Assembly: GCF_008729015.1 (NCBI RefSeq)
Contig: NZ_RKSM01000001.1
Span: 310,001-374,000 of the forward strand
Source of the DNA: Haloarcula sp. CBA1129
GTDB lineage: Archaea > Halobacteriota > Halobacteria > Halobacteriales > Haloarculaceae
Length of the DNA: 64,000 bases
Direction of reading: 5' to 3'
The translations under genes were made by a program, and so were the position numbers. Of the stretch, positions 12,409-17,620 are shown piece by piece; position 1 is the stretch's first letter; every line of letters starts with the position of its first letter. The notes under the pieces are model-generated. The model was not told the DNA's origin, did no database searches, and saw only the letters and a program-made list of their open reading frames with translations.

Positions 12409-12795
12409 CCCGCGGCCGATTTATCACAAGCATCTACCGACCGTTTCTGCTCGTCAGTGTTGACCGATAGTACCTGTAGTATTGATAGTATAGATAGTAT
12501 AGATAGTATCAAGATAGAGCCTACATACTCACCTCCACTACGAATAGTCGCGCACGGGTCGCCAGCAATCACCCCCGGTTCGCTTCGGCCCTCCACACGC
12601 TCACATCGTCCGCTGGTCGCCCGTGCCATCCCCTGACCGTGGTCCGTTTCCGCCTCCGAACGCCGGTTTCCGTGTTTTCGATCCGCGAGAACGACCTGCC
12701 ATCCACATCTGGAGCGCCGCTGGTGCGACGAATATCTGTGAGCCTGATACGCCGGAACCGAACCACTTTCACCAGCCGGCTACGTGCCTCCCGCT
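12409..12795 (+). other. 387-base gap before leuB with 9-bp tandem repeats
   Basis: No convincing gene: the open frames here are arginine-rich and cross into leuB in the wrong frame. The clearest structure is GATAGTATA repeated three times (12484-12509, third unit ending in C), preceded by a related partial unit, all in unusually AT-rich DNA. The leuB promoter must lie in this gap, but I see no strong TATA box at the expected distance from ATG 12796. Confidence 0.55.
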
Positions 12796-13779
12796 ATGAC
12801 TCACGAGATAGCCGTTATTCCCGGCGACGGAATCGGACAGGAGGTCACACCCGCCGCGGTCGAAGTCCTTTCGGCCATCGACGCTGTCGACTTCGACTTC
12901 GTCGAGGGCGAGGCCGGCGACGCGGTGAAGGCGGAAACCGGCGAGGCGCTCCCCCAGAAGACGCGCGACTTGGCGGCCGACGCCGACGCGACGCTGTTCG
13001 GCGCGGCCGGCGAGACGGCGGCCGACGTTATTCTGCCGCTCCGGCAGGTCGTCGGTTCGTTCGCAAACGTCCGTCCGGCCCGATCCTACCCCGGTCTCGA
13101 CGCCGTCCAGCCCGACACGGATATCGTGTTCATCCGGGAGAACACTGAGGGTGTCTACAAAGGCATCGAGAGCGAGATCGCCGAGGGTGTCACTACCTGT
13201 ACGCGAGTCATCACGGAGGAAGCCTCCGAGAAGATCGCCGAATACGGGTTCAGCTATGCGAAACAGAACGGCTACGACGACGTAACTATCGCTCACAAGG
13301 CCAATGTCATGCGCACCACCGACGGCCTGTTCCTCGATGCGGCGTCGGCGGTCGGTGAGGACCGGGACGCGACCTACGACACCGCGCTCATGGACGCGCT
13401 CGCGATGCACCTCGTGATGAACCCGCAGGATTACGGTGTCGTCATCTGTCCGAACCTCGCCGGTGATATGCTCTCGGACCTCGCCGCGGGCCTCGTCGGC
13501 GGCCTCGGTCTGCTGCCGTCGGCTAATATCGGCGAGGACAACGCGCTGTTCGAGCCGGTCCACGGCTCCGCGCCGGACATCGCCGGCGAGGGCATCGCCA
13601 ATCCGTCGGCGATGATTCTCTCCGCCGCGATGTTGCTCGACCACCTCGGGTACGACGAGCAGGGCGACGCCGTCCGGTCGGCCGTCGAGGCCGTGCTCGA
13701 CTCGGGGCCCCGGACGCCGGATCTGGACGGCAACGCATCCACTGAGGACGTGACTGCGGCTGTCGTCGACGAGCTGTAA
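12796..13779 (+). CDS. leuB: 3-isopropylmalate dehydrogenase
   Basis: NAD-dependent oxidative decarboxylation of 3-isopropylmalate, and of 3-methylmalate in the citramalate route. The 327-residue protein starts at ATG 12796 ([17 protein letters not shown]). The open frame extends four codons further, but the conserved start is here. [13 protein letters not shown] holds the substrate-recognition region, [20 protein letters not shown] the metal and substrate residues, and [18 protein letters not shown] the NAD-binding loop. It is separated from leuD by two unrelated genes. Confidence 0.94.
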
Positions 13780-13867
13780 CCGGTTTTCTCTCGCCCTATC
13801 CCGTCAGAAACAAGCATAGTCCAATAGAAAGAGGTAAAACCGAAGCGAAACAATCACAGCCGAAAGA

Positions 13868-14629
13868 ATGCTCCCGGCCGAGCGAAAGCGCACTATCGTC
13901 CAGTTGGTGACAGAGCGAGACGGCTGTTCAGTGTCGGAGCTGGCCGCGGAACTGGAGTTTTCGAAGGCGACGATACGCCGCGATCTCCGGGACCTCGAGT
14001 CACAAGGCCGAATCGAGCGGTCCCACGGCGGCGCAGTGCCGGCATCCTCTGCCGGAACGGAGCGACCGTATGGTCAGCGTGAGGTCGACCACTACGCGGA
14101 GAAACAAGCCATCGGCGAGCGAGCCGCACAGGAAGTCCGCGAAGGGCACGTGGTCTGTTTCGATGCGGGCTCGACGACGATGGAAGTCGCTCGCGCGATT
14201 CCGGACACTGACTACGTCGCGGCGACGAATATGCCACAGCTCGCCATCGAAATGGCCGAGCGAGATGTCGATGCCAAACTCACCGGTGGGAGCCTCCGAC
14301 CGCGGACCCGCGCGCTCGTCGGCCCGATGGCCGAGCGCGCTATCGGACGAATGAACTTCGATCTGCTGTTTCTGGGGACGAACGCGCTCGACAGCGCCGC
14401 CGGGCTGTCGACGCCCAACGAGGACGAGGCGGCCGTCAAGGAACTGATGGTCGAGCGCGCTCGCCGTGTCGTGCTAGTCGCCGACGCGTCGAAGTTCGGC
14501 GACCGGAGCTTCGTCACCTTCGCCGATCTGGATCAGGTCGACCTGCTCGTCAGCGACGCCAGCCCGTCAGGGGCGCTCGCCACGGCACTCGCGGATGCAG
14601 ACGTAGATATCGAAGAGGTCAGCACATGA
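13868..14629 (+). CDS. glpR: DeoR-family sugar regulator (GlpR-like)
   Basis: A 253-residue repressor. Residues 1-57 are a DeoR helix-turn-helix (IVQLVTERDGCSVSELAAEL, FSKATIRRDLRDLESQG). Residues 75-240 are a sugar-phosphate sensing domain (VCFDAGSTTMEVARAI, FLGTNALDSAAGLSTPNEDE). In Haloferax, GlpR of this type represses 1-phosphofructokinase genes in response to sugars. Here it overlaps pfkB by four bases (ATGA), so it most likely controls its own operon and perhaps fba. Confidence 0.85.
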   Translation: MLPAERKRTIVQLVTERDGCSVSELAAELEFSKATIRRDLRDLESQGRIERSHGGAVPASSAGTERPYGQREVDHYAEKQAIGERAAQEVREGHVVCFDAGSTTMEVARAIPDTDYVAATNMPQLAIEMAERDVDAKLTGGSLRPRTRALVGPMAERAIGRMNFDLLFLGTNALDSAAGLSTPNEDEAAVKELMVERARRVVLVADASKFGDRSFVTFADLDQVDLLVSDASPSGALATALADADVDIEEVST

Positions 14630-15534
14630 TTGTCACCGTCACCTACAACCCCGCAGTCGACCAAACGATCCAGTTCGATGAGCAGATGGCTCCCGACCGC
14701 GTCATGCGGGCCGACAAAGCGCAATTTGACGCCGGTGGGAAAGGCATCAATGCGGCGCAGTTGTTCACCGCCATGGACCGGCCCTGTGTTGCGACGGGAC
14801 TGCTAGGTGGGTTCACCGGCTCGTTCATCCGAGATACGCTGGAGGACGACGGCGTCGAGACGGCCTTTGTAGAGGTGGACGGAACGACCCGGCTCAACAC
14901 CACTGCTATCGCAGCCGCCGAGGAGTACAAACTGAATCAGGCCGGGCCAACCGTCGACGAGTCGGTCGTCGACTCGCTGCTCGAACAGGTGCGAGCGCAG
15001 GACCCCGACCGCGTGCTCGTCGGTGGGAGCCTGCCGCCGGGGCTGTCCCCCGAGGCCATCGACCGTATCGCGGCCGGCGGCGACTGGGAAACCGTCGTCG
15101 ACACCGGTGGCGATGTCCTCCGAGAACTCGACGCCCAGTACGGACTCTGTAAACCGAACCGGGCCGAACTCGGCGACGCGACCGGGGCCGATGTCTCCTC
15201 CGTCGAGGGATGTGCAGACGCGGCAGACACGTTCCGAGAGCATGGTTTCGACCGCGTTCTGGCTTCTCTCGGTGCGGACGGTGCAGTTCTCGTTGGCGAT
15301 GCGGGCCGACTGTACGCGGAAGCGCTCGACATCGACGTGGTCGACACCGTCGGCGCTGGCGACGCGCTCCTCTCAGGCGTGTTGAGTGCTTGGGAGGCTG
15401 GGGCGGACGACGAGACGGCGCTGCGGACCGGCGTGGCCGTCTCCGCGCAGGTCGTCCAGCGGGCCGGCACGGCCGTCCCCGACTTAGATGACATCGACTC
15501 GCTCCGAGACGGCGTGACGGTGCGGCGGCTGTAG
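14626..15534 (+). CDS. pfkB: 1-phosphofructokinase (PfkB family)
   Basis: Phosphorylates fructose-1-phosphate to fructose-1,6-bisphosphate. The 302-residue protein has FDAGGKGINAAQ near residue 36 (sugar contact), NTTAIAAAEEYKLNQAGP, and the catalytic anion-hole motif DTVGAGDALLSG with the base Asp. These features and the glpR linkage fit FruK/1-PfkB better than ribokinase or tagatose-6-phosphate kinase. It is translationally coupled to glpR and converges on the second kinase gene, with a hairpin between them. Confidence 0.87.
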   Translation: MIVTVTYNPAVDQTIQFDEQMAPDRVMRADKAQFDAGGKGINAAQLFTAMDRPCVATGLLGGFTGSFIRDTLEDDGVETAFVEVDGTTRLNTTAIAAAEEYKLNQAGPTVDESVVDSLLEQVRAQDPDRVLVGGSLPPGLSPEAIDRIAAGGDWETVVDTGGDVLRELDAQYGLCKPNRAELGDATGADVSSVEGCADAADTFREHGFDRVLASLGADGAVLVGDAGRLYAEALDIDVVDTVGAGDALLSGVLSAWEAGADDETALRTGVAVSAQVVQRAGTAVPDLDDIDSLRDGVTVRRL

Positions 15535-15567
15535 CGACTGGAAACTCTTTTCCCAGAAATAGAGGAA

Positions 15568-15583
15568 CCCGAGATAGCTCGGG
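15568..15583. terminator. Bidirectional hairpin between converging sugar genes
   Basis: CCCGAG-ATAG-CTCGGG is a perfect 6-bp stem with a four-base loop, located four bases past the minus-strand kinase stop and 33 bases past pfkB. On the minus strand a pyrimidine-rich stretch (TTCCTCTATTTCT) follows. On the plus strand a CTTTT run precedes it. It plausibly ends both transcripts. Confidence 0.5.
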
Positions 15584-15587
15584 CCGG

Positions 15588-16715
15588 TCAGAACTTTTCG
15601 AGGTAGTCGTCGACGAACGCGCGTACGTCGGTCAGCGACGGCTGGTCGGCGGTCCGGACGAAGTAGCCGGCGACGGCGTTGCCGACGACGACGGCGGCCG
15701 CCGGCGGGAGGCCGGCGATGCGAGCGAGGCCCAGCCCGGCGTTGAAGTGGTCGCCGGAACTGGTCGTCAGCTCCGGGTCCGAGACGGCGGGGACAGCCAC
15801 GCTGTCGGTTCCGTCGGCGGTGACGACGACCGAGCGTTCGACGCCGTGGCCGACGAACCACGTCGGCGACAGTGCCTCAAACACCGCCTCGGCGTCCTCG
15901 GCGAAGGACCGCTCGGCCTCGCCGGCGTAGGCGTCCGCCAGAACGCCTGTTTCGGCCCGGTTCGAAGAGACCACCACGTCGGTCACCTCGTCCAGCCGGC
16001 CGATGGCCTCCCGGCCGGCGCGCAGGCGGTCGGCGTCGAGCTTTCGCACGTCGCCGGGGTCGACGAGCACCGTCTCCGGCGGGTCGTCGATGTCGCTCCA
16101 GAGAGACCCCAGACCGTCGAAGATGGACGGCAGGTCCGGCGTCTCCGACCAGTAGCCGGTCCCTAACAGGCTCGCACCGTCAAGCTTCTCGGCCAGTCGG
16201 TCGTGGCCGAAGGTCGCGTCGAGTTCGGCCCAGTCCAGCGACATCGTGTCGCCGATCTCGGTGAGCATCAGCTTCCCGTCGTCGAACTCGACGGCGTCGG
16301 TGACGCCGGGTTCGCCCAGCGAATGGAGTTCGTAGTCGCCGAACTCCCTCTCGAAGGCGTCGCGGACTGGGTCGCCGTACATCCCGACCATCACCGGGTC
16401 GAACGACCAGCCGCCGAAGGCCCGGGCGAGGTGGCTGGTGTGGCCGCCGGTCCGGTTCCCCTGCTGGAGCCACTCGAAGGAGAGGGAGCTTTCAGCGGCG
16501 ACGGAGCGGTCGATGCGGTCGCCAAAGCCTTCCAGCGTGGCGAGGCGCTCGTGGCTCTCGGGGTCGATACGGTCCGCGACGATCTCTCGGACGCGGTCGA
16601 GGTAGCCATCGAAGCCGAAGACGACCCGGCCCGTGTCGATAGCGTCGGGAAGCGCACCGCTGGCGGGCAACGCTTCGTCCGCTGCGGCGACGGCTCGGCG
16701 CGTCTCCTCGTCCAT
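15588..16715 (-). CDS. PfkB-family sugar kinase, probable ketohexokinase
   Basis: A 375-residue, longer-than-usual PfkB-type kinase. It shows RVVFGFDGYLDRVRE, QGNRTGGHTSHLARAFGG (sugar-binding GG region) and LTTSSGDHFNAGLGLA, in which the catalytic Asp follows Ser-Ser-Gly instead of Gly-Ala-Gly. It lies two bases before (downstream of) the class I aldolase stop and faces glpR-pfkB. Haloarcula species are known to degrade fructose by ketohexokinase, 1-phosphofructokinase and aldolase. With the other two present, fructose 1-kinase activity is the natural inference, not proved by motif. Confidence 0.7.
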   Translation of the reverse strand: MDEETRRAVAAADEALPASGALPDAIDTGRVVFGFDGYLDRVREIVADRIDPESHERLATLEGFGDRIDRSVAAESSLSFEWLQQGNRTGGHTSHLARAFGGWSFDPVMVGMYGDPVRDAFEREFGDYELHSLGEPGVTDAVEFDDGKLMLTEIGDTMSLDWAELDATFGHDRLAEKLDGASLLGTGYWSETPDLPSIFDGLGSLWSDIDDPPETVLVDPGDVRKLDADRLRAGREAIGRLDEVTDVVVSSNRAETGVLADAYAGEAERSFAEDAEAVFEALSPTWFVGHGVERSVVVTADGTDSVAVPAVSDPELTTSSGDHFNAGLGLARIAGLPPAAAVVVGNAVAGYFVRTADQPSLTDVRAFVDDYLEKF

Positions 16716-16718
16716 GGC

Positions 16719-17501
16719 CTACAGGACGTCGTCGGCTGTCGCGTCCTCGAAGATGACGCCTTCGAGCTTGTCCAGAATGTCGTAGGGGTCATCGCGCTGC
16801 CAGACGTTGCGGCCGACGGCGAGGCCGGCGACGCCGACGTCCATGCAGTCCTCGACGAGTTCGAGGAAGTCCCGGTCGGAGGTCTTCGAGCCGCCCGAGA
16901 GCAGGACGCGGTTGTCGGCCGCCGAGCGGACGGCGTGGGCCATCGCTTCCTTGTCCCGCGGATACTTGACCTTCGTGAAATCAGCACCCAACTCCAGACC
17001 GATGCGGGCCGCGTAGGCGATGGTCGACGGACTCCGGTGCTCCTTGATAGCCTGCCCGCGCGGGTACGACCACATCGCGATGGGAAGGTCGTGGTCCCGT
17101 GCGTTCTCTTGGACCGGGCGGAAGTCCTCGAACATGTCGGTCTCGCGGTTGACGCCCGGATAGACGGTGTAGCCGATGGCGTCGGCACCGAGTTCGGCCG
17201 CGTAGTCGACCGACCAGTTCTGGGGCGAGTACGGGTCGCCCATCCAGAGGTCCGAGCCGCCATTGAGCTTCGCCAGCAGGTTCACGTCGTCCTCGTAGCT
17301 CGGGTAGTACGTCTCGGCGAGACCCTTCCCGACAGCCAGAGCCGTCACGGCATCGTGGGTCGCCATCTCGAACACTTCGCGGGGGTCGAGGCGCTCCTCG
17401 ACGCCGCTGAACTGCTTAGGACCGTGTTCCAGCCCGTGGTCGTGGGCCAGCACGAGCGTCTTGTCGTTCCGTACGAGCGGTGAGTCACCCAGTGGTCGCA
17501 T
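16719..17501 (-). CDS. fba: Fructose-bisphosphate aldolase, archaeal class I (DhnA type)
   Basis: Cleaves fructose-1,6-bisphosphate to dihydroxyacetone phosphate and glyceraldehyde-3-phosphate through a Schiff base. The 260-residue TIM barrel contains VLAHDHGLEHGP near the start, GADFTKVKYP with the candidate Schiff-base Lys, and VLLSGGSKTSDRDF and GLAVGRNVWQ as phosphate-binding loops. Start ATG 17501 is preceded by an inverted repeat at 17531-17544. It is transcribed with the kinase, which follows after three bases. Confidence 0.9.
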   Translation of the reverse strand: MRPLGDSPLVRNDKTLVLAHDHGLEHGPKQFSGVEERLDPREVFEMATHDAVTALAVGKGLAETYYPSYEDDVNLLAKLNGGSDLWMGDPYSPQNWSVDYAAELGADAIGYTVYPGVNRETDMFEDFRPVQENARDHDLPIAMWSYPRGQAIKEHRSPSTIAYAARIGLELGADFTKVKYPRDKEAMAHAVRSAADNRVLLSGGSKTSDRDFLELVEDCMDVGVAGLAVGRNVWQRDDPYDILDKLEGVIFEDATADDVL

Positions 17502-17530
17502 GTGTGGTGTTTCTACCGAGAACGACCATT

Positions 17531-17544
17531 AACCGTTTTCGGTT
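17531..17544. promoter_or_regulatory. Inverted repeat in the fba promoter (possible operator)
   Basis: AACCG-TTTT-CGGTT is a perfect 5-bp inverted repeat lying 30-43 bases before the fba ATG, where the minus-strand core promoter should be. It is preceded by TTAA. It could be an operator for a sugar regulator such as the nearby GlpR. No second copy at pfkB is convincing. Confidence 0.4.
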
Positions 17545-17620
17545 CTGATTTGTTACTACTGTTCGCGTTCGTTTTTGAGCGAGAGCGGGAAGTAAGTGTG
17601 TTCCAGTGAAAGGTTCGGCT

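Follow-up and report, generated by a model that had tools for sequence, protein, structure and literature searches.

A 64,000-nucleotide stretch of the Haloarcula sp. CBA1129 genome (contig NZ_RKSM01000001.1, positions 310,001 to 374,000; hereafter the window) contains a compact group of four genes that is predicted to carry fructose into central metabolism. Two of them lie on the forward strand (13868-15534), namely glpR (13868-14629, 253 residues), encoding a DeoR/GlpR-type transcriptional regulator of haloarchaea, and fruK, also called pfkB (14626-15534, 302 residues), encoding a fructose-1-phosphate kinase. Convergent with this pair, the reverse strand (17501-15588) carries fbaB1 (16719-17501, 260 residues), for a class I fructose-1,6-bisphosphate aldolase (FBA), followed in the order of transcription by khk (15588-16715, 375 residues), for a putative haloarchaeal ketohexokinase (KHK; ATP:fructose 1-phosphotransferase). 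The start of fruK overlaps glpR by 4 bases, fba and khk are spaced by 3 bases, and 53 bases separate the ends of fruK and khk where the two pairs meet. An earlier note on this DNA, made from the letters alone, had described a glpR-pfkB pair facing a PfkB-family kinase-fba pair, and the four open reading frames (ORFs) lie as it described them.

Profile searches assign each product to a family. GlpR scores 382.4 bits against NF041397, passing the equivalog cut-off of 300, and matches the DeoR-type domain models PF00455 and PF08220 (E 8.3e-51 for DeoRC). FruK passes the equivalog cut-off of the 1-phosphofructokinase model NF041320 (459.4 bits, cut-off 400) and matches PfkB with E 2.2e-41; it is the only gene in the genome with a fruK match above cut-off. 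Khk matches the Pfam family PF25270, 'Prokaryotic ketohexokinase', with 499.5 bits (cut-off 35, E 8e-150), over residues 1-371 and the whole profile (1-365 of 365), and it is the only PF25270 match in the genome. Fba belongs to the DeoC/LacD aldolase family (PF01791, 131.7 bits, E 4.3e-38).

The identity of the cluster comes from comparison with two close relatives in which the genes have been tested by experiment. Two of the genomes compared were taken as H. hispanica and H. marismortui from the coordinates of plasmid genes: in the former (G012), MscE at C2 153433-154863 corresponds to 153430-154863 of NC_015944, and in the latter (G018), EIIC at C7 402017-402862 falls within the match at 401937-405965 of NC_006395. 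At the corresponding H. hispanica and H. marismortui positions (L088 and L089, respectively), the proteins are 92.3% and 92.3% identical to the window Khk, aligned gap-free over 375 of 375 residues, 92.4% and 92.4% identical to FruK, 100% and 100% to Fba over 260 residues, and 96.4% and 92.1% to GlpR. The genes, their order and their orientation, glpR included, are those of HAH_1077 (fruK), HAH_1078 (khk) and HAH_1079 (fbaB1) of H. hispanica and of the rrnAC0343 locus of H. marismortui. Since the DNA of the locus is only 89.7% and 89.0% identical to these two, the window probably comes from a separate Haloarcula species.

According to PMC11519228 (2024), purified H. marismortui ketohexokinase (rrnAC0343) is specific for fructose, deletion of khk in H. 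hispanica nearly eliminates growth on mannitol and sorbitol, HAH_1077 is a 1-phosphofructokinase, and HAH_1079 is a class I FBA, a role established with a deletion mutant and by its ability to complement an fba mutant of H. volcanii. These data support the assignment of the window kinase, by orthology, as a haloarchaeal ketohexokinase. We put the probability at about 95% that the window holds the Haloarcula fructose cluster orthologous to HAH_1077-1079, with a Khk/FruK/Fba route and a separate supply through a phosphotransferase system (PTS) encoded elsewhere. In the proposed pathway, Khk would convert intracellular fructose and ATP to fructose-1-phosphate (F1P), as shown for the 92% identical H. 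marismortui enzyme; FruK would convert F1P to fructose-1,6-bisphosphate, which the class I aldolase would then cleave to triose phosphates; both of these latter steps have been shown in H. hispanica.

The earlier note had proposed the 375-residue kinase as a good candidate for ketohexokinase. The proposal holds, given the full-length PF25270 match and the 92.3% identity to the proteins at the positions of the purified and the genetically tested genes, and the kinase shown to be a ketohexokinase is the orthologue of window khk, not a different kinase elsewhere. To treat it as still an open candidate is outdated. A first prediction of this gene type dates from 2011, when PMC3102087 suggested that Hmuk_2662, near fruK and fba, might encode a ketohexokinase, and a second from 2021, when PMC8305020 named Hmuk_2662 and HVO_1812 to represent the orthologue set; the experimental proof in close relatives followed in 2024 with PMC11519228, so that the finding is already known. 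Taken as a whole, the interpretation of the earlier note is partly supported.

Two sequence traits offered in that note as pointers to ketohexokinase, unusual length and SSGD in place of GAGD, were rejected as evidence. At 375 residues, Khk is ordinary within its family, in which the haloarchaeal members have 369-378 residues and the bacterial ones 352-388. The SSGD motif is indeed present (residues 319-322), but it is a trait of the clade and says nothing about the substrate: S[SA]GDHFN is found in 33 of 33 haloarchaeal sequences, the window included, while the 46 bacterial sequences have GAGD (45) or GGGD (1). The alignment comprised the window, 32 haloarchaeal and 46 bacterial loci, with start codons set by a simple rule and the partial copies L018 and L034 excluded.

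Searches by sequence for structural relatives of Khk returned weak, mostly short matches to chains in the Protein Data Bank (best E 0.0097). The weak resemblance to 2-keto-3-deoxygluconokinase and fructokinase chains, the best of it confined to residues 300-354, would favour a kinase that acts on another substrate, such as 2-keto-3-deoxygluconate, tagatose or a sugar phosphate. We regard this as very improbable, as the purified H. marismortui enzyme is fructose-specific (PMC11519228, whose reported list, in the sections cited, does not name 2-keto-3-deoxygluconate or tagatose) and NCBIfam kinase models reach at most 21.4 bits on Khk, far under cut-off.

Some genomes carry further copies of khk. 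Paralogues 43-50% identical to the window Khk, all with SAGD, occur in Halomicroarcula sp. SYNS111 (L031, L032 and L034) and Halomicroarcula rubra (L030), both of which also have a khk orthologue (L011 and L015, respectively); it is possible that the paralogues serve different substrates or conditions. In two loci, L018 (Haloarcula rara) and L034, khk was matched in part only. Two-piece matches in G002 (C1 13395-14225 and 14231-14488) and G013 (C1 2607753-2608589 and 2608583-2608834) are probably these same loci, and frameshifts or assembly errors could possibly account for the split copies.

The aldolase deserves separate comment. Because it is 100% identical to the HAH_1079-position protein, whose function has been shown, the window Fba is, on the strength of that identity, a working class I FBA, yet it lies outside the archaeal class I equivalog NF040816. 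Fba is 99-100% identical in the seven loci L001-L007, compared with 86-94% for the adjacent Khk. Such high conservation is consistent with an additional gluconeogenic role of the aldolase; growth on casamino acids is absent in the H. hispanica fbaB1 mutant (PMC11519228).

To place the cluster among its relatives, related khk loci were taken as the best 80 of 172 confirmed relatives, of which L001-L018 are the closest haloarchaeal loci. GlpR, FruK, Khk and Fba occur together in 12 of these 18; Fba lies beside khk in 16 (in L009 the match extends over 71%), and FruK is present in 15. Haloferax KHK, of the HVO_1812 type, is orthologous, the 11 Haloferax loci being 53-56% identical to the window Khk; PMC11519228 gives 53% identity between the H. 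volcanii and H. hispanica enzymes and, citing Ortjohann and Schonheit 2024, treats the former as a ketohexokinase. The setting is different, however. In the 13 kb covered at each Haloferax khk locus (L019-L029, 11 in all), we found no match to GlpR, FruK or Fba at E 1e-5 and >28% identity, and the fructose route of Haloferax runs through PTS, fruK and fba; PMC11519228 describes the part played by KHK in H. volcanii as unknown.

More distant are the bacterial members of PF25270 (L035-L080), many from Planctomycetota and Verrucomicrobiota and some from Firmicutes. They share the Pfam family (the six tested score 168-213 bits) and common invariant residues with the haloarchaeal proteins, but are 26-32% identical and have GAGD or GGGD for S[SA]GD. 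At the six of the 46 bacterial loci that were scanned, no FruK- or Fba-type neighbour was found among 14 flanking proteins, and an attempt to read a function from these neighbours led to no coherent answer. In two of the six, a GFO/IDH/MocA oxidoreductase adjoins the gene; a methyltransferase, an AraC-type regulator, a glucosamine isomerase-type protein, a Na/H exchanger, a DUF5050 protein, a YjeF-type protein and a DNA-alkylation-repair protein occur once each, and five flanking proteins have no Pfam match.

The earlier note had stated that no PTS genes are present in the window, and had taken Haloarcula to phosphorylate fructose by ketohexokinase and not by a PTS. The first statement holds for EIIC, the component checked: the single PTS_EIIC match of the genome lies on another contig (C3:124257-125102). 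The second does not hold. On contig C3 of the same genome (about 121.1-125.2 kb; L083 5149-9184), ORFs for EIIC, EIIA, HPr, EI and EIIB lie on the same strand, and Pfam matches above cut-off (PF02896, PF00381, PF00359, PF02302, PF02378) cover all five components. Four of the five subunits (IIC, IIA, IIB and EI) also exceed the cut-offs of NCBIfam models (TIGR01417, TIGR00848, TIGR00829, TIGR01427). The stretch recurs in eight plasmid records, all from Haloarcula, 94-100% covered at 78-88% DNA identity; five of these records, pHH400 of H. hispanica and NC_006395 of H. marismortui among them, have annotations that name each of the five subunits under the match, and one record carries no annotation. 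Like the window genome, both of these species have a fructose-type PTS, in their case on a plasmid. A PTS had been noted earlier in H. marismortui (PMC3102087), H. hispanica (PMC10817205) and most Haloarcula species (PMC12029414). In the window genome, the PTS ORFs are flanked by glycosyltransferase- and heparinase-like genes and an archaeal SMC-related gene.

The ten ORFs scanned around the PTS include no PfkB kinase. Because the only fruK match above cut-off is in the window and no PfkB kinase lies near the PTS, F1P of either source probably uses the window FruK. The five-component PTS would probably convert external fructose to F1P and feed the same FruK and Fba as Khk does.

Where the intracellular fructose for Khk may come from is suggested by a second locus. 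The msc mannitol/sorbitol region of H. hispanica (L084) has a counterpart at about 784-797 kb of contig C1, with 11 of 11 queried genes at 87-97% identity and full query coverage, in the same order; in the window genome msc (C1) and PTS (C3) are on different contigs, whereas in H. hispanica both are on pHH400. Mannitol and sorbitol, once oxidised by polyol dehydrogenases of the msc cluster, would supply at least part of the intracellular fructose. Of 21 same-genus genomes searched, 12 encode MscE; all 12 have khk and 7 have EIIC. The window genome also has a GH32-family gene, a possible sucrase.

From these observations we infer a division of labour between PTS and KHK. We somewhat favour the view that Haloarcula has two parallel F1P-forming steps converging on one FruK and Fba, the PTS acting on external fructose and KHK on fructose that the cell itself makes from mannitol, sorbitol or possibly sucrose, such that KHK would be dispensable for growth on fructose. 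PMC11519228 covers the khk mutant on sorbitol, mannitol and glucose and reports fructose growth for mutants in fbaB1, mscR and gfcR; a report of khk-mutant growth on fructose was not found in the sections of that paper covered or by literature search.

The relation of the two steps bears on another explanation, namely that, as the earlier note supposed, KHK is the main or only fructose route here, with a PTS that either is inactive or handles a different sugar. A ketohexokinase of H. vallismortis has been characterised (according to PMC3102087 and PMC8305020), the fruK of the genome lies with khk, no PfkB kinase accompanies the PTS, and some Haloarcula genomes have khk and no EIIC match, all of which would fit. 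We nevertheless find it unlikely, as IIA, IIB and IIC pass the cut-offs of fructose-type models and the PTS stretch recurs in the eight plasmid records. Moreover, of 32 same-genus genomes, 30 have khk (the two without it are 71% and 80% complete) and 23 have EIIC, and because all 23 genomes with EIIC hold khk as well, the two are not alternatives to each other.

Several points weigh against the reading of the window as a fructose cluster with a separate PTS supply. The gene set is not constant, as 6 of the 18 closest loci lack at least one of the four. Fba falls under every NCBIfam cut-off, reaching 172.6 bits against 430 for NF040816, and no NCBIfam model names Khk above cut-off. HPr scores 131.4 bits against the haloarchaeal model NF041319, slightly under the cut-off of 140, and dual supply is not universal, with khk but no EIIC match in 7 of the 32 same-genus genomes. 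The upstream regions of fba, glpR, PTS and msc share no motif: no pair scored above the maximum of 20 shuffles, once the sole exception, the mscE and mscM upstream regions, was discounted as a trivial overlap. PMC10817205 names a putative glucose isomerase as an alternative fate of fructose in H. hispanica. Finally, the enzyme activities are those of proteins from relatives, and the window Khk itself is assigned by its sequence.

Regulation may be exerted through conserved DNA upstream of each pair. In an alignment of the window with 12 loci, the regions at 13805-13867 (forward strand, upstream of glpR-fruK) and 17505-17567 (reverse strand, upstream of fba-khk) are conserved and could each be a promoter and/or a regulator site; both are weaker in L013 and L014. 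A palindrome upstream of fba-khk, AACCG-AAAA-CGGTT in the window, is perfect there and at 3 of the 12 other loci compared. GlpR, adjoining fruK, may regulate the cluster. In Haloferax, GlpR reportedly represses fructose genes. GfcR probably activates the cluster, as proposed for H. hispanica (PMC11519228). Directly upstream of glpR, at 12784-13779, lies an isopropylmalate/isocitrate dehydrogenase-family gene, as it does wherever glpR is present among the closest 18 loci (13 of them).

The analysis confirms for this genome an assignment made experimentally in 2024 in close relatives. It also shows that this Haloarcula should not be assumed to be without a fructose PTS. If true, two parallel sources of F1P would contrast with the view of ketohexokinase as the fructose enzyme of Haloarcula.

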